Notes under the pieces: generated by a model
Seen by the model: the letters and a program-made list of their open reading frames with translations, nothing else
Database searches by the model: none
Told to the model about the DNA's origin: nothing
Shown: one piece after another, positions 2-33,283 of the stretch
Numbering within the stretch: position 1 is the first letter of the stretch
How the letters are laid out: each line of letters begins with the position of its first letter
Made by a program: the position numbers and the translations under genes
DNA from: a virus
Virus record (IMG/VR): IMGVR_UViG_3300027659_003120
Span: 1-64,000 of that record
DNA: 64,000 nt
Reading direction: 5' to 3' (one strand)

Positions 2-860
2 ACTTCTAGATTTGATGGTAATGCTGCATTTGGTTCTTCTATGCAATCATATGCTAATGGAACATCTTTTGTTGCTAATGGTGGTTCTATTGTAGCGCAA
101 ACCGCTAGATTTAATGCCAACACTTCTATAGGAGAAGAATTAACAACGATTACCATTAATGCTGATAATGCCAGAATATCTGCTAATGCTAATGTTGTAT
201 TCGCTAATGTCACACAACTAAGAGTAAATGATACTTCTAGATTTGATGGTAATGCTGCATTTGGTTCTTCTATGCAATCATATGCTAATGGAACATCTTT
301 TGTTGCGCCTAGTGGTTCTGTTGTAGCAGACAATGCTAGAATAGCAGCCAATACAACTGGTGCTCATTTTGTAGCATCAGGTTCTGTTGTAGCAGACAAT
401 GCTAGAATAACAGCGAATACAACTGGTGCTCATTTTGTAGCATCTGATTCTGTTGTAGCAGACAATGCTAGAATAACAGCCAATACAACTGGTGCTCATT
501 TTGTAGCATCTGGTTCTGTCGTAGCCGATAATGCTAGAATAACAGCCAATACAACTGGTGCTCATTTTGTAGCATCTGGTTCTGTCGTAGCCGATAATGC
601 TAGAATAACTACAAACGCAGCATTTGGTTCTTCTATGCAATCATATGCTAATGGAACATCTTTTGTTGCTAATGGTGGTTCTATTGTAGCGCAATCTGCT
701 AGATTTAATGCTAATACTTCTGTTGGAGAAGAACTAAAAACAATTACCATTAATGCTGATAATGCCAGAATATCTGCTAATGCTAATGTTGTATTCGCTA
801 ATGTCACACAACTAAGAGTAAATGATACTTCTAGATTTGATGGCGATTCTACTTTTATTG
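2..860 (+). repeat. 66-bp tandem repeats inside a longer direct repeat
   Basis: About four 66-bp units (starts near 313, 379, 445, 511, 577) encode 22-residue repeats around the words VVADNARI and NTTGAHFVA. They are flanked by a longer direct repeat, about 2-290 against about 625-845, encoding the same NDTSRFDG-to-QLRVNDTSRF block. Copies differ by only a few bases, which suggests recent duplication or recombination. Confidence 0.85.
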
Positions 861-3640
861 GTAATATGTCGGTTGGTGGAAATATGTCCACGAATCAAAA
901 TTTGACGGTTGGAGGAAATTTTACTATTCTGGGTGATACTTTAATTGATACAAATAAAATTATATTACGGGCTACAACTAAGCAAGTTATAGATGCGGCT
1001 GAATTTGATTCTCTTATAGTTAACCGAACTTCAGGTACGGCTTTCATATATGAGGCTAACAATTCAATAAGATTAAATGGACATGGTTTTGCAAATGGTA
1101 ATGTAGTAACATTTACTTCTTTATTTAATGGACTAACAGGTATTTCAAATAGTACTAGTTTTTTTGTTGTATCATCCGGTGCCCCACTTGGCGGCAATGA
1201 ATTTAAAGTAGCACTAACTTCGGGCGGCACTGCAATTGATATTATTAGTGCATCACCAACATCAACAGCAACAGTAAAAAATACAAGTGAAATTGATGCA
1301 GAAATTCGTTGGAACGAAGCCACGAAAAACTGGCAACTAAGCGATAATGCCAATAAAGATTTAACTACTACATTTGCGAACATTAGTACAGCTAATTCAA
1401 TTCTAACAAGCACCGCATCGGCTCAAGCAAACGTAGGTGCAGCTAGAATAGCAGATGTTGCATCTGCTCAAGCAAACACAGGCGCTGGTTTAATAGCATT
1501 AACATCTTCATATGCAATTAATGGGTTAACTGTAAATTCTTTGAATATTGGTGCTCAAGCAGTTATTAATAGTTCGGGCGCATGGGTTGGGTCAAATTCA
1601 GGTCTTGTCGGTGCTCAAGGTGTTCAAGGACGCCAAGGATTTCAAGGTGTTGTCGGTGCTCAAGGAGTTCAAGGTGTTGTCGGTGCTCAAGGTGTTCAAG
1701 GTGTTGCTGGCGCTCAAGGTGTTCAAGGTGTCGTAGGTGCTCAAGGAGTTCAAGGTGTCGTAGGTGCTCAAGGAGTTCAAGGTGTCGTAGGTGCTCAAGG
1801 AGTTCAAGGTGTTGTTGGTGCTCAAGGAGTTCAAGGTGTCGTAGGTGCTCAAGGTGCTCAAGGACGCCAAGGTGCTCAAGGGTTTCAAGGATTTCAAGGT
1901 GTTGTTGGTGCTCAAGGAGTTCAAGGTGTTGTTGGTGCTCAAGGAGTTCAAGGTGTCGTAGGTGCTCAAGGAGTTCAAGGTGTCGTAGGTGCTCAAGGAG
2001 TTCAAGGTGTTGTCGGTGCTCAAGGCGTTCAAGGTGTTGTCGGTGCTCAAGGCGTTCAAGGTGTTGTCGGTGCTCAAGGTGTTCAAGGAACTGCTGGTGC
2101 TCAAGGCGTTCAAGGAACTGCTGGTGCTCAAGGAGTTCAAGGTGTTGTCGGTGCTCAAGGCGTTCAAGGTGTTGTCGGTGCTCAAGGCGTTCAAGGTGCT
2201 ACTGGTGCTCAAGGTGTTCAAGGAACTGCTGGTGCTCAAGGCGTTCAAGGAACTGCTGGTGCTCAAGGAGTTCAAGGTGCTACTGGTGCTCAAGGAGTTC
2301 AAGGTGCTCAAGGGTTTCAAGGATTTCAAGGTGTTGTCGGTGCTCAAGGAGTTGTCGGTGCTCAAGGCGTTCAAGGTGCTCAAGGACGCCAAGGTGTTCA
2401 AGGTGCAACAGGGCCCGGCACAGTATTCGTATGTAACTCAACCAACATTGTAAGTTGCATTGGTGGTAATGGTAGCAGTGGCGCACACAACAACTTCTTT
2501 GGTGAATTTGCTGGTGCAAGCAACTCAACTGGCAACAACAACAACTTTTTTGGTAGATATTCTGGTCGCTGCAACACCACAGGCGGATACAATAACTTCA
2601 TCGGGCGCCTGGCAGGTAACAAAAACACCTTTGGCTGCTTCAACAACTTCTTTGGCAATCAAGCTGGTTTCGGCAACACGACAGGTTGCAGCAACAACTT
2701 CTTTGGTTGCAATGCTGGTTGCAGTAACACCACTGGCAGCCACAACACCTTCTTTGGCGAACAAGCTGGTTATGCTAACACAACTGGATGCCACAACGCC
2801 TTTTTTGGTTATGAAGCTGGTGCCAATAACACCACTGGCTCCTACAACACCTACATTGGCCGCGCCGCTGGAGGCGGTTCCGGTACCAATGGCATCAATA
2901 ACTTCTATGTCGGTAATTGTGCTGGTCGCTACAACACCATTGGCTGCAACAACACCTTTTTTGGTGTACAAGCTGGTTATAGAAACACAACTGGCGTACA
3001 CAACAACTTCATTGGCCTGCTCGCCGGCGCCTGCAACACCATTGGCACCCATAACATCTTCTTTGGACGATGTGCTGGTTATAGTAACACCACGGGCACT
3101 ACCAACATATTTTTAGGTGACCGGGCAGGGCGAGATGTTACCACTGGCATCAACAACCTATTTTTTAGCGAAATGGCAGGCGTTGGCTTGGCTGGTCTCT
3201 GCAACACCACCACAGAGAGCAATCGCATTATTATGGGTAACCTTGGACATACTGAAGCTTATGTAAAAATTGCTTGGACTGTTACCTCGGATGTCCGTGA
3301 TAAGTGTATCTTCGGAAATGTACCACATGGTCGGAGTTTCTTTGAGAAAATTAATCCAATTAAGTTTGCATTCAAAGATAGAATTACTGGTCTCATAAAA
3401 GATGTAGAGGGAAAACAACGATACGGGTTTTCAGCACAAGAAGTCCTGGAAGCTGAAGGGAATAATCCAGTAATTGTAAATTCAGATAATCCAGAATTAC
3501 TAATGATGACTCCTGACCATATGTTACCTATTTTAGTGAATGCGATTAAAGAACTATCAGCAGAAGTAGATGCACTTATTCCTCTAAAAGAATTGGTGAA
3601 TGAATTGAAATTTGAAATAGAAGAATTAAAGAGAAGATAA
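2..3640 (+). CDS. Collagen-like tail fibre with C-terminal S74 intramolecular chaperone (5' end outside window)
   Basis: The frame is open to the left edge: codons before the first internal ATG at 41 repeat a segment seen again near 225-290, so the true start lies upstream and about 1212 residues are visible. In order: Ala/Asn-rich beta repeats (22-residue units around 313-640), a fibre connector, about 90 Gly-X-Y triplets (about 1608-2412, mostly GAQ and GVQ), about 16-residue Asn/Gly/Cys-rich repeats (about 2440-3230, core NTTG..N.FFG..AG), then a peptidase S74 domain (about 3280-3580) with the SDVRDK motif supplying the expected catalytic Ser and Lys. In known S74 fibres this domain trimerises the fibre and then cuts itself off. 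Likely a receptor-binding fibre. The Cys-rich repeats look more GC-rich than their surroundings. Confidence 0.9.
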   Translation, partial: TSRFDGNAAFGSSMQSYANGTSFVANGGSIVAQTARFNANTSIGEELTTITINADNARISANANVVFANVTQLRVNDTSRFDGNAAFGSSMQSYANGTSFVAPSGSVVADNARIAANTTGAHFVASGSVVADNARITANTTGAHFVASDSVVADNARITANTTGAHFVASGSVVADNARITANTTGAHFVASGSVVADNARITTNAAFGSSMQSYANGTSFVANGGSIVAQSARFNANTSVGEELKTITINADNARISANANVVFANVTQLRVNDTSRFDGDSTFIGNMSVGGNMSTNQNLTVGGNFTILGDTLIDTNKIILRATTKQVIDAAEFDSLIVNRTSGTAFIYEANNSIRLNGHGFANGNVVTFTSLFNGLTGISNSTSFFVVSSGAPLGGNEFKVALTSGGTAIDIISASPTSTATVKNTSEIDAEIRWNEATKNWQLSDNANKDLTTTFANISTANSILTSTASAQANVGAARIADVASAQANTGAGLIALTSSYAINGLTVNSLNIGAQAVINSSGAWVGSNSGLVGAQGVQGRQGFQGVVGAQGVQGVVGAQGVQGVAGAQGVQGVVGAQGVQGVVGAQGVQGVVGAQGVQGVVGAQGVQGVVGAQGAQGRQGAQGFQGFQGVVGAQGVQGVVGAQGVQGVVGAQGVQGVVGAQGVQGVVGAQGVQGVVGAQGVQGVVGAQGVQGTAGAQGVQGTAGAQGVQGVVGAQGVQGVVGAQGVQGATGAQGVQGTAGAQGVQGTAGAQGVQGATGAQGVQGAQGFQGFQGVVGAQGVVGAQGVQGAQGRQGVQGATGPGTVFVCNSTNIVSCIGGNGSSGAHNNFFGEFAGASNSTGNNNNFFGRYSGRCNTTGGYNNFIGRLAGNKNTFGCFNNFFGNQAGFGNTTGCSNNFFGCNAGCSNTTGSHNTFFGEQAGYANTTGCHNAFFGYEAGANNTTGSYNTYIGRAAGGGSGTNGINNFYVGNCAGRYNTIGCNNTFFGVQAGYRNTTGVHNNFIGLLAGACNTIGTHNIFFGRCAGYSNTTGTTNIFLGDRAGRDVTTGINNLFFSEMAGVGLAGLCNTTTESNRIIMGNLGHTEAYVKIAWTVTSDVRDKCIFGNVPHGRSFFEKINPIKFAFKDRITGLIKDVEGKQRYGFSAQEVLEAEGNNPVIVNSDNPELLMMTPDHMLPILVNAIKELSAEVDALIPLKELVNELKFEIEELKRR
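1608..2415 (+). repeat. Collagen-like 9-bp periodic repeat block
   Basis: Roughly 90 consecutive GGN-NNN-NNN triplets code for Gly-X-Y, dominated by GAQ, GVQ and GVV. Many 18- and 27-bp stretches are identical, so copy number can change by slippage or recombination without breaking the frame. Long apparent open frames on both strands here are by-products of this periodicity. Confidence 0.95.
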
Positions 3641-20803: not shown

Positions 20804-21448
20804 ATGAAAAAAATCTTAATTGCAACACCATGTCTTGACCAAAAAGTTGATGCTTATTTTGTCCATAGTCTTTGTGAATCTATCAAACTTGGTATTAAAA
20901 ATGACCTTGATATTAGGTGTGTCTTTCTTGCCAATGAGAGCATTCTTCCAATGGCAAGAAATGAACTCTTTGCACTAGCATATAAAGAAAACTATGACAT
21001 AATGGTTTTCATTGATGATGATGAAAGTTGGAAAGAACACGCACTAATTGAAATCATTCAATCAAATAAAGATGTTGTAGCTTTGCCTGTCGTAAATAAA
21101 AGCGACACGGTTATCGGATTTAATGTTTGGTTAAACAAAGATTCAGAAAAAGATCCATCTGATGGTTATATAAAAATCAATAAATGCGGTACAGGATTTC
21201 TAAAACTATCAAGAAAAGTAATTGAGGACCTCTGGAACTCAAACACAGAGTTGATGTTTAGAAACAAAAAACTGAAAAATATTTGTGAGTATACATATGT
21301 GAATGGTGATTTTATTGGCGAAGATATCACACTCACTAAAAAAATCAAAGAACTTGGATATGACATTTGGTTAAATCCAAATTATACAGTTTCCCATATT
21401 GGCAATAAAATGTACAAGGGAGACTTTAAGGCTAAAAATAATTTATGA
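20804..21448 (+). CDS. GT-A-fold glycosyltransferase-like protein
   Basis: This 214-residue protein opens with MKKILIATPCLDQ, a typical beta-strand start of GT-A enzymes. It carries VFIDDDESW near residue 71, which supplies the Asp-rich metal/nucleotide-sugar motif. GTGFLKLSR and DFIGEDITLTKK fit the acceptor-side acid region. It is similar in architecture to the protein at 57471. It is the first gene of the island, directly behind the consensus promoter, and overlaps the next start by four bases. Substrate unknown; it likely modifies a surface glycan, a virion glycoprotein or DNA. Confidence 0.7.
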   Translation: MKKILIATPCLDQKVDAYFVHSLCESIKLGIKNDLDIRCVFLANESILPMARNELFALAYKENYDIMVFIDDDESWKEHALIEIIQSNKDVVALPVVNKSDTVIGFNVWLNKDSEKDPSDGYIKINKCGTGFLKLSRKVIEDLWNSNTELMFRNKKLKNICEYTYVNGDFIGEDITLTKKIKELGYDIWLNPNYTVSHIGNKMYKGDFKAKNNL

Positions 21449-22197
21449 TTGATGTTATTATTCCGACAATGTGGATGGCTGAAATAACGCTAGATGCAAT
21501 ACAAAAATATTGCAAAAATCCAAAAGTCAGTAAAGTCATACTGATAGACAACAATGCCAAGATGCGACCTAAAGCATTTTCTAAAATTGCATCCGATTCA
21601 AAAATACAATACGTGTCATACGGAAAAAACCTATATGTAAATCCATCATGGAATGAAGGATATTACAGGTCCGAATCTGACATTATTGCAATCATCAATG
21701 ATGACATAATTGTGAGTGATGATGTATTTGATTTAGTATTGAAACACAATCCAGAGCCTGGCGATTTGATTGGTGTAAATCTGCGTGGTCGTCAAAACAA
21801 TTATAAGATTGATGATATCATTGACACCGAAGAAGAGATTGTTAAATTAAATTATAACAAGAATTCTCCTATTGGTGGGCAAGCATGGGCATTTGGAATT
21901 TGTTTGTTCATGCACAGAAAAACCTATAGAGTTATTCCTAGCATTTATCAGATTTGGTACGGCGATGATTATCTAGCGCAGAGTGCAAAAAATGTATATG
22001 CAATCAATAGCAATAAGATAAAAGGTACCATATCTGAAACTCTTAAAAAGTTTAATAATCCAAATGATGATATTTCTAAACGAATTGAGTTAGACTCTAA
22101 AAATTTTATAAGATTTAATCATTTCCAAAACGGAAAGAACTGGGATATACCAAAAAAAATGATTTCTACATATGAACGTCAAAGAAAATCTACATGA
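21445..22197 (+). CDS. Family-2-like glycosyltransferase
   Basis: This 250-residue protein begins MIDVIIPTMW with the GT2-type VILIDNNA strand-loop near residue 32 and AIINDDIIVSDD near residue 81 as the DxD-equivalent. The sequence then moves to PIGGQAWAFGICLFM and YGDDYLAQ, matching the acceptor region and the late acidic motif. No membrane helix is visible, so it is soluble. It is translationally coupled to both neighbours through ATGA overlaps. Probably a sugar transferase; the sugar and acceptor cannot be read from sequence. Confidence 0.75.
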   Translation: MIDVIIPTMWMAEITLDAIQKYCKNPKVSKVILIDNNAKMRPKAFSKIASDSKIQYVSYGKNLYVNPSWNEGYYRSESDIIAIINDDIIVSDDVFDLVLKHNPEPGDLIGVNLRGRQNNYKIDDIIDTEEEIVKLNYNKNSPIGGQAWAFGICLFMHRKTYRVIPSIYQIWYGDDYLAQSAKNVYAINSNKIKGTISETLKKFNNPNDDISKRIELDSKNFIRFNHFQNGKNWDIPKKMISTYERQRKST

Positions 22198-23102
22198 AAC
22201 AAATTATGAAGTATAGTATTTTTCACATACAAGGTGGCATCGGTAAACATATTGCAGCAACAGCAGTTGCAAAAGCAATTAAGAACAATCATCCAGATAG
22301 AAAACTAATTGTTGTTTGTGCTTATTCGGACATTTTCATAAATTTATCTTTTGTTGACCGTGTTTTTAATATAGGTAATACGAGATATTTTTACCAAGAA
22401 TACATTCAAGATAAAGATTCTATAATTTTTCACCATGAGCCTTACTACACAACAAATCACATTCACAAAAGAAAAAAACTCATTGAAAATTGGTGTGATT
22501 TATATAATCTAAAGTACAACGATGAAACGCCCGAATTGAAATTCAATAAACTACAATTTGATGTTTCTAAAACTGTTTGGGGTAGAAAAAAACCAATAAT
22601 GGTTCTACACACAAATGGTGGCATGATGACAACTGATGCTAAACCATATGCTTGGACAAGAGATATGCCTACTGACATTGCTCAAGAATTAGTTGAACAC
22701 TACAAAAAAGACTATCACATTTTTCAAATCACCAAAATAAATTCTCCTAAGTTAAAGAATGTTGAGCATGTATTTGCTACACCAGAACAGTCATTATCAC
22801 TAATGGAATTGTTTAGTATTTTTCTTCACAGTAAAAAAAGAGTATTAATTGACTCCTGTATGCAACATGCCGCGGCTGCAATGAAACGGAAATCAACTGT
22901 GTTATGGAATGGAACAAGCCCAAAAGTTTTTGGATATGAATTACATGATAATATATGCACTGATATACCATATAATTTTAAGCTTCCGGGCAGTTATCTG
23001 TTTGATTTTGACTTTAATGGGAATGAGGTTGAGTATCCGTTCGCAGATGATGTAAAATTATACGATATAAATAAAATCATAGAATCTATTGATAAACAAT
23101 GA
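22194..23102 (+). CDS. GT-B-fold heptosyltransferase-like protein
   Basis: This 302-residue protein has an N-terminal HIQGGIGKHIAATAVAKA segment resembling the glycine-rich loop of GT9 heptosyltransferases (GD.G..). The second half contains LMELFSIFLHSKK, VLIDSCMQHAAAA and VLWNGTSPKVFGY, matching the C-terminal donor-binding segment where a Ser/Asp-rich loop and WG.T.P motif occur. The start could be 22194 (overlapping the upstream stop) or 22206. It probably transfers a sugar to a lipopolysaccharide-like or protein glycan. No donor specificity is visible. Confidence 0.65.
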   Translation: MKQIMKYSIFHIQGGIGKHIAATAVAKAIKNNHPDRKLIVVCAYSDIFINLSFVDRVFNIGNTRYFYQEYIQDKDSIIFHHEPYYTTNHIHKRKKLIENWCDLYNLKYNDETPELKFNKLQFDVSKTVWGRKKPIMVLHTNGGMMTTDAKPYAWTRDMPTDIAQELVEHYKKDYHIFQITKINSPKLKNVEHVFATPEQSLSLMELFSIFLHSKKRVLIDSCMQHAAAAMKRKSTVLWNGTSPKVFGYELHDNICTDIPYNFKLPGSYLFDFDFNGNEVEYPFADDVKLYDINKIIESIDKQ

Positions 23103-23114
23103 AGGAGATGTGAA

Positions 23115-24068
23115 ATGAAAGAAATGATTAAAGAAATTATTCGTGAAGAAATGATGAGAGCTTCCATGAAAAAATATTACTTCATGTCGGGTTTACCTCG
23201 GTCTGGAAGCACTCTGCTATCTTCAATTTTAAACCAGAATCCTAGAATGTATTCCGGACCCAGTTCTCCTGTTGTAGCTATTATGCTTGCCCTGGAGAAT
23301 GCAATCTCAAGTGATGAATTATTTTTGGCTTTTCCGAAAACTGACCAAGCAGGAAAAATAATTAGTAGTGTTATTGAAAATTATTATTCTGATGTTGATA
23401 AACCGGTTATCATTGATAAAAATCGTTCATGGGTAAATCGTATGCATTATATTCCAGGTTATTTTGGAGTTGAAGCAAAAATTCTTTGCCCAGTAAGAAA
23501 CATGGATGAAATTCTGACTTCATTTATTACTATGCATCGTAGAAATCCATTTGAGATAAATGGTAAAATTAATTTCATTGATGAGATGTTGATTAAAAAT
23601 AATATACCACTGAATGATGAAAATAGATGCCAACTTCTATCGGGACCTAATGGAATTATTGGTCAAAGTTATGGCGGTATTCAACAAGCTATGATGGACG
23701 GCAAACAAAAACAACTTCATTTTATTGAGTATGATGATTTAATGAATGAACCTAAAGAAACGATGCGTAAAATTTATGAATTTTTAGATGAAGAATATTT
23801 TGAACATGATTTTTCAAAGATAGAAAATATACATAAAGAAAATGATGCGGCCGTATATGGTCTTTCAGATATGCATGATGTTCGGAATAATTTAGAAAAG
23901 ATTTCTAAGGACCCAAAAGAAGTATTGCCCGAGTCTATACTTGAAAAATGTCAAGGAACTGAATTTTGGAGAAATGTAAACGAAGATTACACTGAAGAAG
24001 TAGAAGATTTTACACCAAATGAAACCCCTCCCTCAAATGAAGATAACACAAAACTTATAGGACAATAA
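23115..24068 (+). CDS. PAPS-dependent sulfotransferase
   Basis: This 317-residue protein has an AAGGAG ribosome-binding site. After an amphipathic N-terminal helix (about 1-18) comes FMSGLPRSGSTLLSS; PRSGST at about 28-33 is the 5'-phosphosulfate-binding loop of sulfotransferases. CPVRNMDEILTSFI near residues 125-138 matches the 3'-phosphate-binding motif (Arg and Ser). The C-terminal 50 residues are acidic and probably disordered. Sulfotransferase-family genes occur in marine T4-like phages. The neighbouring kinase-nucleotidyltransferase could supply an activated donor. The acceptor is likely a carbohydrate or protein; this is inferred. Confidence 0.85.
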   Translation: MKEMIKEIIREEMMRASMKKYYFMSGLPRSGSTLLSSILNQNPRMYSGPSSPVVAIMLALENAISSDELFLAFPKTDQAGKIISSVIENYYSDVDKPVIIDKNRSWVNRMHYIPGYFGVEAKILCPVRNMDEILTSFITMHRRNPFEINGKINFIDEMLIKNNIPLNDENRCQLLSGPNGIIGQSYGGIQQAMMDGKQKQLHFIEYDDLMNEPKETMRKIYEFLDEEYFEHDFSKIENIHKENDAAVYGLSDMHDVRNNLEKISKDPKEVLPESILEKCQGTEFWRNVNEDYTEEVEDFTPNETPPSNEDNTKLIGQ

Positions 24069-24069
24069 A

Positions 24070-24357
24070 ATGGAAAAAACACCAAAAACACTTGTACAAA
24101 TTCAAGGCACCATTAAATCAGCTAGAGACAGCGTTTGGGTCATCACAGATGAAATTGAAAAACTAACTGCTGGTGCATTACCAAATGAAAACCATAAAGG
24201 CAACATCGGCCGAAATGTTGAACATCTAAAATTGGTTGTTGCAGATACTGAGATTGTTAATTCAGGTGAAGACATTGCCGACCTTATTGCAGCAATTGCC
24301 ACAGGCGAAGCAAAACTTGCTGAGAATATCTGGCCAGCAGCCGACAATACTGAATAA
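24070..24357 (+). CDS. Small helical hypothetical protein
   Basis: This 95-residue protein starts one base after the sulfotransferase stop. It is Ala/Glu/Lys-rich and predicted to be helical, with DSVWVITDEIEKL and a central histidine/asparagine patch (NENHKGNIGRNVEHL). No known domain is recognised. Lying between the sulfotransferase and the kinase-nucleotidyltransferase, it may be an accessory subunit, but nothing in the sequence proves it. There is no membrane segment or signal peptide. Confidence 0.6.
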   Translation: MEKTPKTLVQIQGTIKSARDSVWVITDEIEKLTAGALPNENHKGNIGRNVEHLKLVVADTEIVNSGEDIADLIAAIATGEAKLAENIWPAADNTE

Positions 24358-24374
24358 AAAATTTAATTTATATT

Positions 24375-25232
24375 ATGAAAAAAATTCTAATTATGGGATT
24401 ACCTGGTTCAGGTAAAACTTACCTCGCAGAAAAACTCAAAACATATCTTGAGTATAATGGTGATATTTTTAAAGTAAATCCATATAAGATGATGAATCTG
24501 GAAAGTGGACTTGGCCAAACACCATCAAAAGTTTCTGTTGATTGGTTTAATGCAGATGAAGTGCGTAAGAGATTTAACGACTGGGATTTTAGTAAAGAAG
24601 GCCGTATTCGTCAAAGCATACGAATGTTTGAATTTGCTATGAAATGTTCCAGTGATTTTGTCATATGTGATTTTGTTGCACCGCTGCCAGAAATGCGTCA
24701 CAATTTTAAAGCAGATTGGACAATTTGGATGGACACAATTGATGCTGGTAGATATGAGGACACGAATAAGGCTTTCGTTTCACCAGACTTATATGATTTT
24801 AGAATTACTGAACAGAATGCAGAAAAATGGGTTAAGTTTATTGGAAATCACATTCTTGAAAATATACGCAGACCAAGATTTGATTGGCAAAAAGAAACTG
24901 TGCAGATGCTGGGGCGTTGGCAACCTTGGCATCCTGGTCATAGAGCATTGTTTGATAGGGCAATTGAAAAGACTGGGCAAGTAGTTATACAGATTAGGGA
25001 TTGTCAGGGATGGCAAGGTTCTAATCCATTTGCAATTGAGCAAGTCAAAAATTATATTCAAAGAGACTTGGATCCGGTATATCAAGGGCAGTACGAAATT
25101 CAGATTGTGCCAAATATTGTCAACATTACATATGGGCGTGACGTTGGTTATAAGATAGAACAAGAGGTATTTACTGAAGAGATTCATTCAATCTCAGCGA
25201 CTAAGATTCGTAATGAAATGGGAATCGGATGA
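24375..25232 (+). CDS. P-loop kinase (APS-kinase-like) fused to HxGH nucleotidyltransferase
   Basis: This 285-residue protein has two domains. Residues 1-~165 form a P-loop kinase with GLPGSGKT at 8-15, WFNADEVRKRFNDWDFS resembling the APS-kinase DGDNVR region, and a switch-like DFVAPLPEMR. Residues ~175-285 form a nucleotidyltransferase with GRWQPWHPGH (HxGH about 186-189) and ISATKIR (273-279), the signature pair of NadM- and cytidylyltransferase-like enzymes. Bacterial PAPS synthesis also pairs an APS kinase with an HxxH adenylyltransferase, so activated-sulfate supply for the sulfotransferase is plausible. The second domain looks closer to NadM than to ATP sulfurylase, however. Confidence 0.75.
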   Translation: MKKILIMGLPGSGKTYLAEKLKTYLEYNGDIFKVNPYKMMNLESGLGQTPSKVSVDWFNADEVRKRFNDWDFSKEGRIRQSIRMFEFAMKCSSDFVICDFVAPLPEMRHNFKADWTIWMDTIDAGRYEDTNKAFVSPDLYDFRITEQNAEKWVKFIGNHILENIRRPRFDWQKETVQMLGRWQPWHPGHRALFDRAIEKTGQVVIQIRDCQGWQGSNPFAIEQVKNYIQRDLDPVYQGQYEIQIVPNIVNITYGRDVGYKIEQEVFTEEIHSISATKIRNEMGIG

Positions 25233-25936
25233 TTTATAATGAACCTTATCCACACCATATAATAGATAATTTTATTGATGATGAGATTGCTCATAAATTG
25301 TCAAATGACTTTATGAGTTATGATTCCCCAAATTGGTTTATTTACAACAATCAAATTGAAGTCAAAAAATCATGTAACAACTGGTACAATTTTCCAGAAG
25401 AAACGTATAAGTTTTTTCAGTATTTGAATTCTTCAACATTTGTTCAGAGTTTGTCGGATTTAACTGGTGTACAACTTATACCGGACCATGGATTACATGG
25501 CGCTGGTTGGCATATTCAACCCGCCCAAGGTAAACTGAATGTACATTTGGACTATTCAATTCATCCTAAGCTAGGTTTAGAGCGTAGATTCAATTTAATT
25601 TTTTACCTAACACCAAACTGGAATACATCTTGGGGAGGAAATCTTGAATTGTGGTCACATAACTCAGAGAATAATTCTCCAAAAGAATTGATAAAAATTG
25701 TGGAAAACAAATTCAATCGTGCATTAATTTTTGATACCACTTATAATTCATGGCATGGTTTTTCACAACCAATAACTTGCCCAGAAGGTGTATATAGAAA
25801 GAGTATTGCAATGTACTATCTATGTGAACCATCAAAAACTGCATCCAAACGACATAGAGCATTATTTTCAACAACTGAAGAACAGAAGAATAATGGGAGC
25901 GTTCTAAAATTGATTCAAGATAGGATTAAATTATGA
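25229..25936 (+). CDS. 2-oxoglutarate/Fe(II) oxygenase (prolyl-4-hydroxylase-like)
   Basis: This 235-residue protein overlaps the previous gene by four bases. It has the iron-binding HxD in LNVHLDYS (His about 105), the distal His in NSWHGFSQP (about 175) and the 2-oxoglutarate-binding Arg in VYRKSIAMYYL (about 189). The central FNLIFYLTPNWNTSWGGNLELW matches the P4Hc core. Such enzymes hydroxylate proteins, sugars or small molecules and are common in marine myoviruses. Its place in an island of glycosyltransferases suggests tailoring of a glycan or a virion protein. Confidence 0.85.
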   Translation: MIYNEPYPHHIIDNFIDDEIAHKLSNDFMSYDSPNWFIYNNQIEVKKSCNNWYNFPEETYKFFQYLNSSTFVQSLSDLTGVQLIPDHGLHGAGWHIQPAQGKLNVHLDYSIHPKLGLERRFNLIFYLTPNWNTSWGGNLELWSHNSENNSPKELIKIVENKFNRALIFDTTYNSWHGFSQPITCPEGVYRKSIAMYYLCEPSKTASKRHRALFSTTEEQKNNGSVLKLIQDRIKL

Positions 25937-28278
25937 CAGAAACATGTACAGATAAAATTGTTGAGATACTAAAATCTAAAAAAATTGATAGTTTTGAAGT
26001 TCGTGGCGGCACAGATAAAATCTCTGGGCACAGCTACTCTGAGATATATGGAAAACATTTAAACAAATACTTAGACAAAAAAGGATCTCTCCTGGAAATA
26101 GGAGTATTTTGGGGCGGTTCTGCGGTTTTATGGAACGACTTACTTCCTAATTTTAATTTGTGTTTGTTGGATATAGTAAATGTAATCACTCCAGATAATT
26201 GGGAACAACTTGATAAGAATAGGATGGAATATCTAATTGCAGATGCTTACAATGATGTAACAAGAAACCAGATAAAAGAAAAATATCCAGATGGATTTGA
26301 TGTTATTACTGAAGATGGTCCTCACACTTTAGATAGTCAGTTAAGTTGTATTAAACTTTATTTGCCTCTAATCAAAGAAGATGGAGTAATGATTATTGAG
26401 GACATTGCAAATATAGAAAATTTAAATACATTAATGAAATCAGTTGATAGTAATTATGATTGTATTTCATATGATTATAGGCATATAAAAAATCGTTCGG
26501 ATGATATTGTTTTAGTTATTAAAAAAAGAATGAAAAAATGTAAAATAGTAATGACTGCTATGTTTAAGAATGAGGCATCAGTGACGAAAAAGATGCTTGA
26601 ATCTTGCTACAAATATATTGATTTTTGGGTTGTTCAAGATAATGGATCCACAGACGGAACAGATAAAATAGTTAAAGATTTTTTTACAGAGAAAAATATA
26701 CCCGGCCACTATTATCAAGTAGAAGAAGGTTGGGTTGGTTTTGGATGGAATAGAGACCACTTAATACAAGTGTGCCAGAGTATTGACCATGGGTGCGACT
26801 GGATTTTAAAAATGGATTGTGATGAAACTTTAGAAGTTGATGCTGATTTTGATTGGTCTTTACTTGATGATAAGTCTCAACATTCATTTCATATACCAGC
26901 TGTACAGCCTGGATTATTATATTACAGGGCATGGATGTGGAATGCACAAATGCCTTGGAGATTTAATCACGACCCGTGCCACGAAACTAGTTACTGTGAT
27001 ATAGAGGGTATTGGCGAAAACTACAATAGATTCAACTTGCCTCTTTCTTTTAGACAGGTTGGAACCAGAGGAGGTCAAAGTTGGACTGTGCCAACAAAGT
27101 TTATTAGTGATGCATTAATACTTGAAGAAAAAATGATTCGTGAAAATACAATGTTAACAGATTCATATCATTTTTGGTATATTGGAAAAAGTTATAGTGA
27201 TGCATATTCTAGCAATGCTTTTCCTTTAGGCGAATCTCAACAGAAAGAATATGCGAGAAGAACAATTTATTATTTTCAAGAATTTTTAAATTTCACTCAC
27301 GATTTTGCAAATACAAAAAAATCAAAACATATTGACGAAACCGCTTACATGTCTCTGTTGTTAATGGGAGATGCAAATTGGTATTTAGGACAAAAAGAAT
27401 CTAGTGTTGAATGTTATAAATTAGCTGCTCAATTTGCACCAGAAAGAAATGAACATTTATATCTTTTAGCTGAGAAGAATAAATATCTTGGAAATTTTAA
27501 AGAAATGTTAATTTGTACCTCTATAATGATGCAACCCGAAAGAACAAATCCATTTCCAAAATATATTAACTTCATTGATCCAACTTTATATCACGATGGC
27601 GGTGATAGGATTAAAAATTTACACGCCGAGGCTTTTTCATATGTTCAATCTATTTGTGTTGCCGAACAAGAACCAGTTGAATTTTTACCAGTACAAAAAA
27701 ATATTATGACAAATTTTAATATAAACAAAAATTATCAAAACAGAATGTTTATTGTGGATAATTTTTATGAGAATCCAGATTCTATTAGGCAACATGCACT
27801 CACAATGGAATTCAAAGAAGACATAAGATATTATAAAGGTTTAAGAACGACTACACACTTTCACCCAAATGGAATTAAAGAATCATTTGAATCTATAATG
27901 GGTAAAAAAATTAACAATTTTGATGGAGGCATCAATGGTTGTTTTCAAATAACTACAGCAAATGATGTTCAGGTGTATCATTATGATTTACAAACTTGGG
28001 CTGCTATGATATACTTGACGCCAAATGCTCCTATTGAAAGTGGAACTAGATTACATCGCTCAAAGATTAATGGCACAAGACATTCAAGTGAGCCCAATAT
28101 AGATGATGCGTTTACTGGTGGCTTCTTGGATTCTACAAAATTTGAGGTTACCGATTCGGCTGCTAATATATACAATAGACTAGTCATTATGGATGCAAAA
28201 TGTATTCATTCAGCAGGTGCATATTTTGGCGACAACAAATATAATGGTAGACTAACTCATTTATTCTTTTTTGATTAA
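25933..28278 (+). CDS. Three-enzyme fusion: methyltransferase, GT2 glycosyltransferase, 2OG-Fe oxygenase-like
   Basis: This 781-residue protein is modular. Residues ~1-200 form a class I SAM methyltransferase (LEIGVFWGGSAVLW as motif I, LCLLDI, and DVITEDGPHTLDSQL typical of CmcI/Methyltransf_24). Residues ~202-440 form a GT2 domain (VMTAMFKNEASV, VVQDNGSTDGTD, WILKMDCDETLEV). A helical, TPR-like linker (~465-540) follows. Residues ~600-781 form a jelly-roll oxygenase of DUF6445 type with VYHYD (HxD about 683), CIHSAGAYFG (second His about 758) and a late Arg (GRLTHLFFF). The fusion suggests sequential tailoring of one acceptor. It overlaps the upstream gene by four bases. Confidence 0.8.
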   Translation: MTETCTDKIVEILKSKKIDSFEVRGGTDKISGHSYSEIYGKHLNKYLDKKGSLLEIGVFWGGSAVLWNDLLPNFNLCLLDIVNVITPDNWEQLDKNRMEYLIADAYNDVTRNQIKEKYPDGFDVITEDGPHTLDSQLSCIKLYLPLIKEDGVMIIEDIANIENLNTLMKSVDSNYDCISYDYRHIKNRSDDIVLVIKKRMKKCKIVMTAMFKNEASVTKKMLESCYKYIDFWVVQDNGSTDGTDKIVKDFFTEKNIPGHYYQVEEGWVGFGWNRDHLIQVCQSIDHGCDWILKMDCDETLEVDADFDWSLLDDKSQHSFHIPAVQPGLLYYRAWMWNAQMPWRFNHDPCHETSYCDIEGIGENYNRFNLPLSFRQVGTRGGQSWTVPTKFISDALILEEKMIRENTMLTDSYHFWYIGKSYSDAYSSNAFPLGESQQKEYARRTIYYFQEFLNFTHDFANTKKSKHIDETAYMSLLLMGDANWYLGQKESSVECYKLAAQFAPERNEHLYLLAEKNKYLGNFKEMLICTSIMMQPERTNPFPKYINFIDPTLYHDGGDRIKNLHAEAFSYVQSICVAEQEPVEFLPVQKNIMTNFNINKNYQNRMFIVDNFYENPDSIRQHALTMEFKEDIRYYKGLRTTTHFHPNGIKESFESIMGKKINNFDGGINGCFQITTANDVQVYHYDLQTWAAMIYLTPNAPIESGTRLHRSKINGTRHSSEPNIDDAFTGGFLDSTKFEVTDSAANIYNRLVIMDAKCIHSAGAYFGDNKYNGRLTHLFFFD

Positions 28279-28280
28279 TT

Positions 28281-29552
28281 ATGAAAAATTTGAAATTTAG
28301 TATTATTACTCCATCACATGATCCAGGAAACATTCCTTACTTGTTAGAAGCATTTGAAAGTTTGTGTGAACAAACTCATGCCAATTGGGAATGGATATTA
28401 GCTATAAACAATAAATTTTTACCACAACTTGTTCCAAAGATAATCAAAGAACATCCAAAAGTAAAAATATATCATACTTATATTGAATCATCAAATATTG
28501 GTGCAATTAAGCATGAATCATTTTTCTTGGGTGAGGGTGATGTTTTAGTAGAACTAGACCATGATGATATGCTTACTTCTAATTGTTTGAAGAAATTAAA
28601 CGAAGCATATCAAGATGATGATGTTGGATTTGTTTATAGTGATAATGCAACATTACATATGGAGAACAATTTTATTCCATTTAATAATTCATACGGCTGG
28701 ACACATAGGCCGTTTGAGTGGAAAGACAAAGAACTCATTGCAATGAATTCTTTCAAACCAACAAGCCATGCAATGTCTTATATTTGGTTTGCTCCAGACC
28801 ATGTTAGGTCATGGAGAAAAGAACATTATGTCAATATTGGTGGACATAATCCTGATATGTTTGTTTGTGAAGACCATGAATTGTGTATTAGAACTTACCT
28901 AACTACAAAAATGGTTTTTATACCTGAACCACTTTATGTTTACAGAATAACAGGAAACAATACTTCTATAAACAAAAGAAATCCAGAAATTCAACAAAAG
29001 ACTAAAGAACTACATGCTCAGTATGCACAAAAATTGGCAGAGAAAGATGCTAAGGATAGAAAATTATTATGTGTGGATATTGGTGGAGGTTTGAATCCTT
29101 ATCCAAATTATTTATCTATTGATTTAAGAAAAGATGCGGATGTCATACATGACTTAAATGATGGTATACCTCTCAGAGATAACACGGTAGGTGTACTAAA
29201 CGCAAGTCATATACTAGAACACTTGCACGATAAGACGAAAATAATGGCAGAAATACATCGTGTATTAGCACCGGGAGGATGGGCGTTCATTCAAGTTCCA
29301 AGTACCGATGGAAGAGGTGCATTTCAAGACCCAACACATGTTAGTTACTGGAACGAAAATTGCTTTTTATATTATACCGATGCATATTTGGCTAATTTTA
29401 TAGATAACAAAGATATCCGTTTTCAAGAATATCGTAGAGAGACATACTTTCCTAATGAATGGATGAAAAATCTAGGCGTATGTGTCACGGACGCTTGGTT
29501 AGTTGCAATTAAAGATGATATGCCAAGATTACCTGGTCCATTAAAGATATAA
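28281..29552 (+). CDS. GT2 glycosyltransferase fused to SAM methyltransferase
   Basis: This 423-residue protein starts two bases after the preceding gene. Residues 1-~250 are GT2: FSIITPSHDPGN, a VELDHDDML metal-binding motif near 90-97, and the late VCEDHELCIRTYL acid motif. Residues ~262-423 are a class I methyltransferase: CVDIGGGLNPYPNYLSIDLR (motif I), ASHILEHLHD and HRVLAPGGWAFIQVPS (type-11 signature). Similar glycosyltransferase-methyltransferase fusions make methylated sugars in O-antigen-type clusters. Its stop codon lies within the late promoter of gp13, so it ends the island. Confidence 0.85.
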   Translation: MKNLKFSIITPSHDPGNIPYLLEAFESLCEQTHANWEWILAINNKFLPQLVPKIIKEHPKVKIYHTYIESSNIGAIKHESFFLGEGDVLVELDHDDMLTSNCLKKLNEAYQDDDVGFVYSDNATLHMENNFIPFNNSYGWTHRPFEWKDKELIAMNSFKPTSHAMSYIWFAPDHVRSWRKEHYVNIGGHNPDMFVCEDHELCIRTYLTTKMVFIPEPLYVYRITGNNTSINKRNPEIQQKTKELHAQYAQKLAEKDAKDRKLLCVDIGGGLNPYPNYLSIDLRKDADVIHDLNDGIPLRDNTVGVLNASHILEHLHDKTKIMAEIHRVLAPGGWAFIQVPSTDGRGAFQDPTHVSYWNENCFLYYTDAYLANFIDNKDIRFQEYRRETYFPNEWMKNLGVCVTDAWLVAIKDDMPRLPGPLKI

Positions 29553-29555
29553 ATA
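29548..29555 (+). promoter_or_regulatory. T4-type late promoter for the neck genes
   Basis: The perfect TATAAATA octamer overlaps the stop codon of the preceding gene and lies 24 bp before the gp13 ATG. This matches the T4 late consensus recognised by gp55-loaded RNA polymerase. Confidence 0.85.
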
Positions 29556-29579: not shown

Positions 29580-30539
29580 ATGGCTAAACCCACAACTAGA
29601 GCAACATTCAAAGACTACTGCTTACGCAGATTAGGTCATCCAGTGATTCAAATCAATGTAGACGATGACCAGGTTGAAGACCGCATAGATGATGCACTAC
29701 AATTCTTTGAGGACTATCATTTTGATGGTTGCGAAGAAATTTATATGAAACATAAAATCACACAAACTGACATTAACCGCAGGTATATTCCTTGCCCAGA
29801 TGCAGTTATTTTTGTGACCGGTATCATACCATTTGACCAGTCTTCTTCATCAATCAATATGTTTGATTTGCGTTACCAATTGCGGTTGCATGATTTATAT
29901 GACTTCACATCCGTGTCATATGTTTCATATGAGATTACCATGCAACACATTCGTACTTTGAATTTATTGTTCTCCGGAACACCGATGTTCAGATTTAATC
30001 GTAAACAAAATAAAATTTTCTTAGACATTGATTGGTCTAGAGATTTACTAGTTGGAGATTATGTAGTGGTTCAGTGTTATCGTGCTATGCGACCAGACAC
30101 TGTTACTTTAACTGGCACATTAGCAGGCAACACAGTTTCTAATATCATTGTTGGAACATCAACAATATTTGACCAAGAAGTAATTGAGAATGATTTTATT
30201 ACTCTGTCAAGCGGAGAAGAAGTTCAAATTAGTAAAATAAATTCTCCAACAAATATACAAATTATTGGAACCGGGTTATCTTCAAATGTAACATCCAACA
30301 CCGCAACTAAAACCGGCATTTCTGATGTATGGGATGATAGATTTCTTAAAAGATATGGTACAGCATTAATTAAAAAACAGTGGGGAGAAAATTTGAAAAA
30401 ATTTGGAGGAATTCAGATGCCTGGTGGCGTAACTCTAAATGGAAAAGAAATTTGGGACGAAGCAGACACTGAAATTAAATCTATAGAAGAAGAAATGTAT
30501 AATTTTAATAGTTTACCTAGTGAAATATTTACAGGTTAA
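29580..30539 (+). CDS. gp13: Neck protein gp13
   Basis: This 319-residue protein begins with the characteristic TTRATFKDYCLRRLGHPV.QINV.D.Q.EDRIDDAL sequence of T4-family gp13. In T4, gp13 and gp14 form the neck that closes the packaged head and accepts the tail. A middle region (about 175-245) adds a small beta insert. The gene follows a perfect late promoter. Its TAA stop is in the same frame as the gp14 coding sequence that follows, so only this stop separates the two proteins. Confidence 0.9.
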   Translation: MAKPTTRATFKDYCLRRLGHPVIQINVDDDQVEDRIDDALQFFEDYHFDGCEEIYMKHKITQTDINRRYIPCPDAVIFVTGIIPFDQSSSSINMFDLRYQLRLHDLYDFTSVSYVSYEITMQHIRTLNLLFSGTPMFRFNRKQNKIFLDIDWSRDLLVGDYVVVQCYRAMRPDTVTLTGTLAGNTVSNIIVGTSTIFDQEVIENDFITLSSGEEVQISKINSPTNIQIIGTGLSSNVTSNTATKTGISDVWDDRFLKRYGTALIKKQWGENLKKFGGIQMPGGVTLNGKEIWDEADTEIKSIEEEMYNFNSLPSEIFTG

Positions 30540-30551
30540 TCGGAGTTTAAA

Positions 30552-31457
30552 ATTCCTACTAATTTCTATTTTAACAATTTTCCTCAACATCAAATAACTA
30601 GTGAGCAATTACTAGTAGAGGACCTCGTCATAGAAGCCATGCAAATACATGGTATGGATGTTTTCTATCTTCCAAGAACAAGTAGAGATTCTGTTGATAT
30701 GTTATATGGTGAAGACACTATAAAAGAATATCGCACTGCTCATGCTATAGAAATGTACCTTGAAAATGTTACAGGTATGGATGGCGAAGGTGATTTTATT
30801 TCTAAATTTGGTCTAGAAATTAGAGATGAATTAACTTTACTTTTAGCCAGAAGACGTTTCTCGGCTACAGTGCCTTTAACACGCCCGAGAGAAGGTGATT
30901 TAGTTTATATTCCTTTAGTAAAGAACTTTTTTGAAATTTCTTTTATTGAACATGAAAATGACCAAGCAATGTTCTATACTCTTGGTAGAGGGCGAGCTGG
31001 TAATGTATATGTTTATGCATTGAAATTAAAACAATTTGTATTTAGTGAAGAAATAATATCTACCGGAATTGATGAAATTGATGACCAAATATTTAATAGT
31101 TATAAACGTGTTTCATTACCATTAGCAAATACTGTTGTATTTCCAGCAGGTACCGGTTCATTTGTTCCTGGAGAAATTATTTACCAAGGCACTTCATTAG
31201 CCACAGCAAACGCACAAGCAATAGTGTATTCATATACCGCACACAGTTCAATAGATGTAATTAGAGTTCAAGGAACATTTACTACTGCTAATGTACGTGG
31301 AAATACAAGTAGTGCATTAAGAAAAACTATTGGGTATAATGATGACTCTCAAGTTGGTAATAATATATTTGAAGATTTTGCTGATAATGTTAGAGTAGAA
31401 ACAGAAGCAGATTCTATTTTAGATTTCTCTGAAAATAATCCATTTGGAGAAGCTTAA
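30552..31457 (+). CDS. gp14: Neck protein gp14, probable ATT start
   Basis: The product contains EDLVIEAMQIHGMDVFYLPR, a hallmark of T4-family gp14. The first ATG (30639) would remove this conserved N-terminal segment and has no well-placed ribosome-binding site. The frame is open from the gp13 stop, and its only start-like codon with a good Shine-Dalgarno is ATT at 30552: GGAG at 30542-30545, six bases upstream. Starting there gives (M)PTNFYFNNFPQHQ, 301 residues, like other marine gp14 N-termini. An ATT start is rare in bacteria (infC and pcnB are known), so this deserves checking. The role is neck assembly with gp13. Confidence 0.8.
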   Translation: MPTNFYFNNFPQHQITSEQLLVEDLVIEAMQIHGMDVFYLPRTSRDSVDMLYGEDTIKEYRTAHAIEMYLENVTGMDGEGDFISKFGLEIRDELTLLLARRRFSATVPLTRPREGDLVYIPLVKNFFEISFIEHENDQAMFYTLGRGRAGNVYVYALKLKQFVFSEEIISTGIDEIDDQIFNSYKRVSLPLANTVVFPAGTGSFVPGEIIYQGTSLATANAQAIVYSYTAHSSIDVIRVQGTFTTANVRGNTSSALRKTIGYNDDSQVGNNIFEDFADNVRVETEADSILDFSENNPFGEA

Positions 31458-31459
31458 AA

Positions 31460-32461
31460 ATGTTAAATAATTCTCATTTTTATAATAGAACAATACGAAA
31501 AGTTGTAGTAGGGTTTGGTACAATATTCAATGATATATTATTGGTTCGTTATAATAGAGCAGGAACTGTAGAGCATGAAAGAATTCGTGTGCCGCTTACA
31601 TACAGCCCTAAAGAAAAATTTATTACTAGACTTACATCAGACCCAGATTTAACAAAATCTATAGCCACTTATGTACCAAGAATATCTTTTGATTTGGTTG
31701 GTCTAGCTTACGATTCTTCAAGAAAATTTAACACAATAAATAAAAACTTCTCTGTCAACACTGTTTCCGGTGCAGCAAGTTCTCAATATGCTCCAGTTCC
31801 GTATAATTTTGATTTTAATTTATCAATTTATGTCCGAAATACTGAAGATGGCACACAAATTTTAGAACAAATATTGCCGTATTTTACGCCAGATTTTACT
31901 GTAACATTAGATTACATTTCAACTTTGGGGCGAAAATATGATATGCCAGTTATACTCAATAGTGTAACTCCAGAAATAGAGTATGAAGGAGATATGTCCA
32001 GCACTAGAATTGTTATCTGGAACTTGACATTCACTGCTAAGGCTTATATTTTTCCTCCTGTAAATACTGCAGGATTAATTAAGCAAGCTAACACTAACAT
32101 ATTTACAGATACCAGAAGCACTCTATCACAAAAAGTTTATGTAGATTATGCAAACGGTTCTGGTGTTTTAGTTACTGGTGAAGGGTTTAGAGATATCGCA
32201 AATACGAAAACCGGAACTATTGTTTATTTTGCTAATAATAGTTTAGGAATTTTAGTAGTTTCTGACATGAATGAGTTACTAGAAGAAAATGATGTTATTG
32301 TTGGAGATTATTCTAATGCTAGATATACGATAGACACTGTTGATATGAATCCACTAAGGACTGTAGCAATAATAACAGTACCAGACCCAATCACCGCAAA
32401 CGCATCTTCTAATTATTCATATACAGAAACAATTACTGAATTTCCAAATTCTCTAACATGA
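31460..32461 (+). CDS. gp15: Proximal tail sheath stabilisation protein gp15
   Basis: This 333-residue protein opens MLNNSHFYNRTIRKVVVGFGTIFNDI and continues with RVPL.Y.PKEKF..RL, the diagnostic region of T4-family gp15. A conserved VPRISFDLVGLAYDSSRK segment follows. In T4, gp15 forms a hexameric ring on top of the tail, joining tube and sheath to the neck. The length is slightly above the T4 protein owing to a C-terminal extension from about residue 215. It overlaps the gp16 start by four bases. Confidence 0.9.
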   Translation: MLNNSHFYNRTIRKVVVGFGTIFNDILLVRYNRAGTVEHERIRVPLTYSPKEKFITRLTSDPDLTKSIATYVPRISFDLVGLAYDSSRKFNTINKNFSVNTVSGAASSQYAPVPYNFDFNLSIYVRNTEDGTQILEQILPYFTPDFTVTLDYISTLGRKYDMPVILNSVTPEIEYEGDMSSTRIVIWNLTFTAKAYIFPPVNTAGLIKQANTNIFTDTRSTLSQKVYVDYANGSGVLVTGEGFRDIANTKTGTIVYFANNSLGILVVSDMNELLEENDVIVGDYSNARYTIDTVDMNPLRTVAIITVPDPITANASSNYSYTETITEFPNSLT

Positions 32462-32845: not shown

Positions 32846-33283
32846 ATGGAAGAACTCATTCAACAATTAAAGGTAATATTAGCTACGAACTTTGCTTTAT
32901 ATTTAAAGACACATAATTATCATTGGAACATAGAAGGTTCAAATTTTCCTCAATATCATACATTTTTAGATGTTCTGTATAATGCAATATTCCTTCAAAA
33001 TGATCCTATAGCAGAACACATTAGGTATCTTGATGCATATGCACCAGGTTCGTTTACTAGATTTCAAGAGCTATCTACTGTTAAAGACCAATACTTAATA
33101 CCAACCCCCAATAAGATGTTTGAAGAATTAAAAGAGGATAATGAAAAATACATCATAGAATTGAGGGCTGGCATTGAATTAGCAGACGATGCAGACGAGC
33201 CTGCAATTGGAAATTTTCTACAAGAGTTGTTAGGCGCACACCAAAAACATTCTTGGATGTTAAGAAGCATTCTTAAATCATGA
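32846..33283 (+). CDS. dps: Dps/ferritin-like protein inserted between terminase genes
   Basis: This 145-residue protein contains THNYHWNIEGSNFPQYHTFL, matching the Dps signature KxHxxHWxVxGxxFxxxH. All five ferroxidase-centre positions are present with the exact spacing of Dps: His26, His38, Asp42, Asp53 and Glu57. Dps dodecamers oxidise and store iron and protect DNA from peroxide. The gene starts one base after gp16 and overlaps gp17 by four bases, so it is co-expressed with the packaging motor. A Lys-rich DNA-binding tail is absent, which argues for iron or peroxide chemistry rather than direct DNA compaction. The function in infection is inferred. Confidence 0.9.
   Translation: MEELIQQLKVILATNFALYLKTHNYHWNIEGSNFPQYHTFLDVLYNAIFLQNDPIAEHIRYLDAYAPGSFTRFQELSTVKDQYLIPTPNKMFEELKEDNEKYIIELRAGIELADDADEPAIGNFLQELLGAHQKHSWMLRSILKS

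Follow-up and report, generated by a model that had tools for sequence, protein, structure and literature searches.

A gene for a Dps-type mini-ferritin was found between the genes for the small (gp16) and large (gp17) terminase subunits of a T4-like virus, and this place was kept in most of its relatives. The window analysed made up the initial 64 kb of an IMG/VR virus record with a length of 91.8 kb, and its gene order was T4-like (Table 1). The dps gene started 1 nt past the end of gp16, and its TGA shared the four nucleotides ATGA with the ATG of gp17, confirming the location and the four-base overlap that the first-pass annotation had described. An assembly artefact was ruled out, the gp16-Dps-gp17 block being 98-100% identical in three other contigs. 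In itself the protein is a tail-less Dps of ordinary type, and its position in the packaging operon is the interesting part: a fixed place for Dps in this operon, shared through a large clade of uncultured phages, has apparently not been described in the literature searched.

Table 1. Positions of the dps-like gene, its neighbours and the late-promoter motif in the window.
Feature	Position	Strand	Basis
TATAAATA, late-promoter motif of the T4 type, 32 nt ahead of gp13	29548..29555	+	
gp13, first gene of the putative late operon	29580..30539	+	Placed solely by T4 gene order; relatives carry homologues at the corresponding position
gp14, neck / head closure, same operon	30639..31457	+	PF11649 E 1e-25; PHROG 460 E 2.6e-56
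gp15, tail sheath stabiliser, same operon	31460..32461	+	PF16724 E 3e-71
gp16, small terminase, 128 aa	32458..32844	+	DNA_Packaging PF11053 E 3.3e-13; PHROG 445 E 1.3e-31
dps-like mini-ferritin gene, 145 aa	32846..33283	+	ATG to TGA; PF00210 E 2.3e-24
gp17, large terminase, 543 aa	33280..34911	+	Terminase_6N/6C: PF03237 E 5e-31, PF17289 E 7.5e-13
gp18	start 34967		Assigned by gene order

The window protein matched the Ferritin domain PF00210 with a score of 86.4 bits (cut-off 24.5 bits) and PHROG 3636 with an E-value of 1.1e-33. A phmmer search against the PDB returned 58 distinct sequences at a cut-off of E 1e-3, almost all of them Dps, the top match being PA0962 of Pseudomonas aeruginosa (8ff9; E 2.7e-24 over 139 residues). 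The AlphaFold2 monomer model, made with 48 phage homologues (pLDDT 97.1), was a four-helix bundle (helices at residues 2-28, 34-61, 88-115 and 119-144) with no fifth C-terminal helix, and it included the short BC helix (70-76) that is a hallmark of Dps. Dps proteins also occupied the top PDB rows in Foldseek and VIA-align, the latter giving Z 23.3 and an rmsd of 1.1 over 144-145 residues for 8ff9, and Z 23.6 for 2c41. From its sequence and modelled fold, the gene product is identified as a genuine Dps-type mini-ferritin. A non-Dps four-helix protein, the alternative raised in the first-pass annotation, was ruled out by the PF00210 match and the structure matches. The protein falls outside the named NCBIfam Dps subfamilies, because its scores stayed below the equivalog cut-offs (NF006975, 45 vs. 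114 bits; NF041388, 47 vs. 170; NF052461, 34 vs. 300).

All five residues of the ferroxidase centre that had been called complete (His26, His38, Asp42, Asp53 and Glu57) were present in the window Dps at the claimed spacing. The pattern was unique to the dps ORF among the 65 main window ORFs, and a chance motif was ruled out by this single occurrence in 20,708 residues. The description held for the four core residues at family level but not for the fifth. In an alignment of 122 proteins from the slot between gp16 and gp17 (121 distinct relatives and the window Dps), H26, H38, D53 and E57, together with W27, Y45 and R60, were invariant (122/122). Position 42 was G in 64 proteins, N in 34, D in 19, K in 2, A in 2 and E in 1, Gly or Asn standing in place of Asp42 in 98 of the 122. 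The equivalent position in 79 bacterial relatives was mostly E (59; M in 16, Q in 2, G in 1 and K in 1); these relatives were found by patterns, one of which contained H26-W27, so that these two residues were partly preselected.

The solved structure of PA0962 helps to interpret this variation. There, Fe1 is bound directly by H37, D64 and E68, and Fe2 by H49 and E68 alone (PMC10002758); H37, D64, E68 and H49 are the equivalents of H26, D53, E57 and H38 in the window Dps, and the position of Asp42 provides no iron ligand in this closest solved relative. On the alignment, the four-residue core is intact and under constraint, and Asp42 is best regarded as accessory and not as a signature of the group, because position 42 varies in the relatives and no PA0962 ligand lies there. 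The carboxylate four residues after His38 was lost in about 80% of the relatives, and the second iron site may therefore be weak. The residues expected of an inter-subunit ferroxidase site (His, His, Asp, Glu) were found as H26, H38, D53 and E57, a correspondence of residues and not of geometry. W27 and Y45 occupied the positions of W32 and Y50 of Listeria Dps in 122/122 proteins; in the Listeria protein these two residues form a radical trap, and W27 and Y45 may, from their position, be its equivalents.

The ends and charge of the protein bear on whether it could coat DNA. In the AlphaFold2 model, helix A began at residue 2 and the last helix ended at residue 144 of 145, and neither a basic N-terminal nor a basic C-terminal tail was present. 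No slot protein had any extra N-terminal residue (0 in 122/122), whereas the nearest bacterial relatives had a median extension of 12 residues. The pI was 5.0 for the window Dps (slot median 5.2, maximum 5.8), with a net charge of about -9 per subunit. A DNA-coating role of the E. coli type is not favoured on the sequence and the model, because of the missing N-terminal tail and the pI of 5.0, and the earlier suggestion that the protein protects phage DNA loses ground, as far as protection by binding is concerned, for the same reasons. DNA binding through surface patches, without a tail, is possible.

PA0962, which likewise has no basic tail, cleaves DNA in vitro (PMC10002758), which raises the question of whether the phage 12-mer might hydrolyse DNA with divalent metals and so degrade host DNA or trim DNA. 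We consider this highly improbable: a nuclease beside the packaging motor would endanger the phage's own DNA, and the catalytic residues of PA0962 are undefined, so that the activity cannot be read from a sequence, while its in vivo role is unknown even in Pseudomonas.

Conservation of the slot was examined with a gp17-seeded scan in which Dps was not used, giving 80 loci with gp17 68-100% identical, 77 of them with readable upstream DNA. In this survey of gp16-gp17 gaps in related phages, of the kind proposed with the original observation, Dps was directly upstream of gp17 in 67 of the 77 readable loci (in a few, with one gene inserted between), and in 10 of the 77 gp16 abutted gp17 and Dps was absent. 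When all scans were pooled and duplicates removed by gp17 DNA, 174 loci were obtained (150 with Dps, 13 with gp16-gp17 and 11 truncated, that is 150 of 163 readable), some of them found through Dps, so that 67/77 is the fairer figure. The distance between Dps and gp17 was between -30 and +20 nt in 137 of 142 loci. In several loci gp16 was located away from Dps, and Dps was still at gp17 (L092, L096, L098, L100, L108, L111, L112, L115 and L124).

Among 50,697 annotated phage records, 2536 had a gp17 homologue and 16 had a similar Dps (E <= 1e-5). The sole T4-like phage among these 16 was Synechococcus phage S-SRM01 (two records, one genome), with Dps outside the structural block; Dps in the gp16-gp17 slot was found in no annotated T4-like isolate in this set, and no report of it was found in the open-licence literature.

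Other insertions were observed around the slot. An ORF of about 190 aa lay between Dps and gp17 at L020:4112-4690 (the same gene in L021-L023 and L026, and similar 191 aa ORFs in L098 and L123); the L020 copy has a NUMOD3 motif (PF07460) and is probably a homing endonuclease. In L025, gp17 itself was broken by a 193-aa ORF. Between gp15 and gp16, a gene resembling window ORF 41-3640 was inserted in L031-L042 (e.g. L032:4801-5619), and an unmatched 412-aa ORF was present in L029.

The history of the gene was followed on a tree built from 80 gp17 sequences, with its root placed by cyanophages and pelagiphages, in which the Dps-bearing clade had a support of 100/100. Dps presence took three changes on this tree, the simplest course being a single basal gain followed by two losses, in L073 and in the clade of L103, L107, L110, L114, L129 and L133. 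Two lineages thus seem to have lost dps, which would therefore be dispensable under some conditions. A further three changes were needed for two deep lineages of Dps, A and B. Loci L077-L085 carried lineage B proteins, 43-46% identical to the window Dps, within a gp17 group that otherwise carried lineage A and whose gp17 was ~80% identical; the tree points to a replacement in place, that is, at least one swap. Pairwise NG86 omega over 150 pairs had a median of 0.09 (IQR 0.07-0.12, median dS 0.65), indicating purifying selection and ruling out a decaying gene.

No close bacterial donor was found in the first genome scan, and the best matches of the profile scan were ~45% identical, mostly from Proteobacteria. 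A contig with a 53% identical Dps (L281, CAIWHI010000271.1, labelled as a Bacteroidetes MAG) was dismissed as a donor: its Dps sits among ORFs resembling phage structural proteins with near-zero gaps, and the 132 kb contig resembles phage DNA that was binned together with a bacterium. We therefore name no donor. A second Dps site, outside the packaging operon, was seen at L047:1266-1700, in a relative of the window phage, where a 46% identical Dps comes right after clamp-loader and regA (PF01818) genes. Dps-like ORFs of ~300 aa, each made up of a Dps domain and a C-terminal extension of ~160 residues, were present at L057:1049-1954, L058:6001-6924 and L059:2112-3035.

The persistence of the slot allows two further readings to be weighed. 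Dps might physically join packaging, by binding phage DNA, gp16 or gp17, or by being co-packaged in the head, and so protect or condense the DNA. The adjacency of Dps and gp17 after displacement of gp16, the near-zero gene spacing and the retention of the slot when a different Dps substitutes all agree with such a role, but the protein is acidic and lacks a DNA-binding tail, 10 of the 77 gp17 relatives do without it, and a gp17-specific surface would not be expected where a distant Dps (43-47% identity) replaces another while gp17 stays ~80% identical. We consider a physical role unlikely.

Alternatively, the gene could be neutral or host-range cargo with no packaging-stage role, parked in the g15-g18 hyperplastic region. 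Position alone is weakly informative, because this region is a known insertion hotspot of cyanomyoviruses (PMC2984593), and the same gap holds a dioxygenase and a halogenase in Pelagibacter phage HTVC008M and three ORFs in S-PM2. The Dps gene resembles hyperplastic-region genes in lying between g15 and g18 and in being missing from other T4-like phages, but it was not variable among close relatives: it was nearly fixed down to a gp17 identity of 68%, with only two putative losses and an omega of about 0.09. Cargo is accordingly given very little weight.

Late expression was suggested by the anatomy of the operon. Among the relatives, the motif TATAAATA preceded gp13 in 14 of the 32 distinct regions compared, in 13 cases at a distance of 32-35 nt, and was absent upstream of gp14 (0/82), gp15 (0/112), gp16 (0/132) and gp17 (0/140). 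It preceded Dps in 5 of 137 regions; in the three loci identified (L092, L098 and L100) gp16 was not adjacent and Dps had its own TATAAATA 28 nt upstream. Across the window the motif was rarer than chance (4 observed vs. 10 expected) and only its placement is informative. These data fit a late transcript shared by Dps and gp17, preserved even after rearrangement, and the co-expression with the packaging motor proposed earlier is supported by the near-zero gaps to gp16 and gp17 in most loci and by the late motif at gp13 and not at gp14-gp17. The other TATAAATA sites of the window (23066, 41436 and 43855, all on the + strand) lay at ORF starts or a short distance ahead of them and fit late promoters. 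In Lake Baikal viral-fraction metatranscriptomes, one transcript is listed as a DNA-binding ferritin-like protein of Pithovirus (PMC9611531, Table 1); it could instead stem from lake phages of the window's kind.

Taking these results together, we regard it as reasonably probable that this is a late, cytoplasmic, tail-less Dps which clears Fe(II) and peroxide by sequestration while genomes are being packaged, and not by coating DNA or as a part of the motor. It would be made late, from the gp13-gp17 operon, and would assemble into a hollow 12-mer; this would oxidise Fe(II), preferring H2O2, and then store the ferric iron. Fenton damage to replicating or packaging phage DNA, or to host machinery needed until lysis, would thereby be averted while the host cell was losing iron and redox control. 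The place beside gp17 would provide late timing and dosage, not a physical link to the motor. PA0962 works with H2O2 rather than O2, and its deletion renders the cells sensitive to H2O2 (PMC10002758); during infection by phage YerA41, the dps and catalase of the Yersinia host are among the strongly induced genes (PMC7354516). A stronger proposal, that Dps is a near-core late gene of this T4-like clade, needed for intact packaging in iron- or peroxide-stressed hosts and possibly touching the motor or the virion, is considered unlikely. A cyanophage host, sought through psbA (PF00124), was set aside: psbA was not found in 12 records (the Synechococcus elongatus control was positive), which gave no sign of a photosynthetic host.

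Stored iron might also be handed to iron enzymes of the phage or the host, such as 2OG-Fe(II) oxygenases or ribonucleotide reductase, as the first-pass annotation had suggested for the oxygenases. The window encodes one such oxygenase (25229-25936, + strand; 2OG-FeII_Oxy_3, PF13640, E 2e-14), located within a block (20804-29552) that directly precedes gp13 and carries glycosyltransferase, sulfotransferase and methyltransferase genes, and a PF13640 gene was present in 6 of the 12 records searched. This reservoir role was weakened by two Dps-bearing records, G001 (162 kb) and G002 (158 kb), without a match to PF13640, the sole 2OG family searched (these records may be incomplete), by the HTVC008M dioxygenase, which occurs without Dps, and by the late position of the gene, which comes after the action of most metabolic genes. 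We judge it distinctly unlikely, and sequestration of iron and peroxide remains the preferred function.

Compared with known systems, the window Dps most resembled PA0962 (8ff9; PMC10002758), with 33% identity over the full length, an rmsd of 1.1, the same four direct iron ligands, a conserved Trp next to Fe1 and no basic N-terminal tail. It differs in lacking about 11 residues ahead of helix A, with which it begins, in having Asp instead of Glu at the +4 position, and in having Phe16 where PA0962 has Tyr27.

Dps was already known in gut phages (Gratiaviridae and others; PMC8008677) and in Lactobacillus phages (PMC6669764). These proteins, and those of Proteus, Cronobacter and Aeromonas phages and of the Synechococcus phages S-SRM01 and S-EIVl, share with the window Dps a proposed role in oxidative stress or iron handling, but are 27-36% identical to it, and none lay between gp16 and gp17 in the annotated regions examined: Dps is near a porin and small ORFs in S-SRM01, beside a sulfate adenylyltransferase in S-EIVl, and among nucleotide-metabolism genes in Privateer. 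Where the gp16-gp17 gap itself was compared, Mosig had one small ORF and S-PM2 three ORFs. The related T4-like HTVC008M holds a phytanoyl-CoA dioxygenase, a member of an iron enzyme family, in this interval; it differs in having a tryptophan halogenase as well and no Dps by tblastn.

The g15-g18 hyperplastic region of cyanomyoviruses carries accessory metabolic genes among structural genes (Millard 2009, as reviewed in PMC2984593). The interval is the same, but in cyanomyoviruses the genes it holds are hyper-variable, while in the present clade a single family is nearly fixed with gp17 identity down to 68%. Phage Dps genes have so far been treated as occasional accessories; here the gene had a fixed, tightly spaced place in a putative late operon in most members of the clade. 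Dps was swapped in place yet rarely lost, suggesting that late control of iron and peroxide may be a standing need of these phages, and the relatives with and without Dps provide a comparison set for whether oxidative damage limits the packaging of phage genomes.
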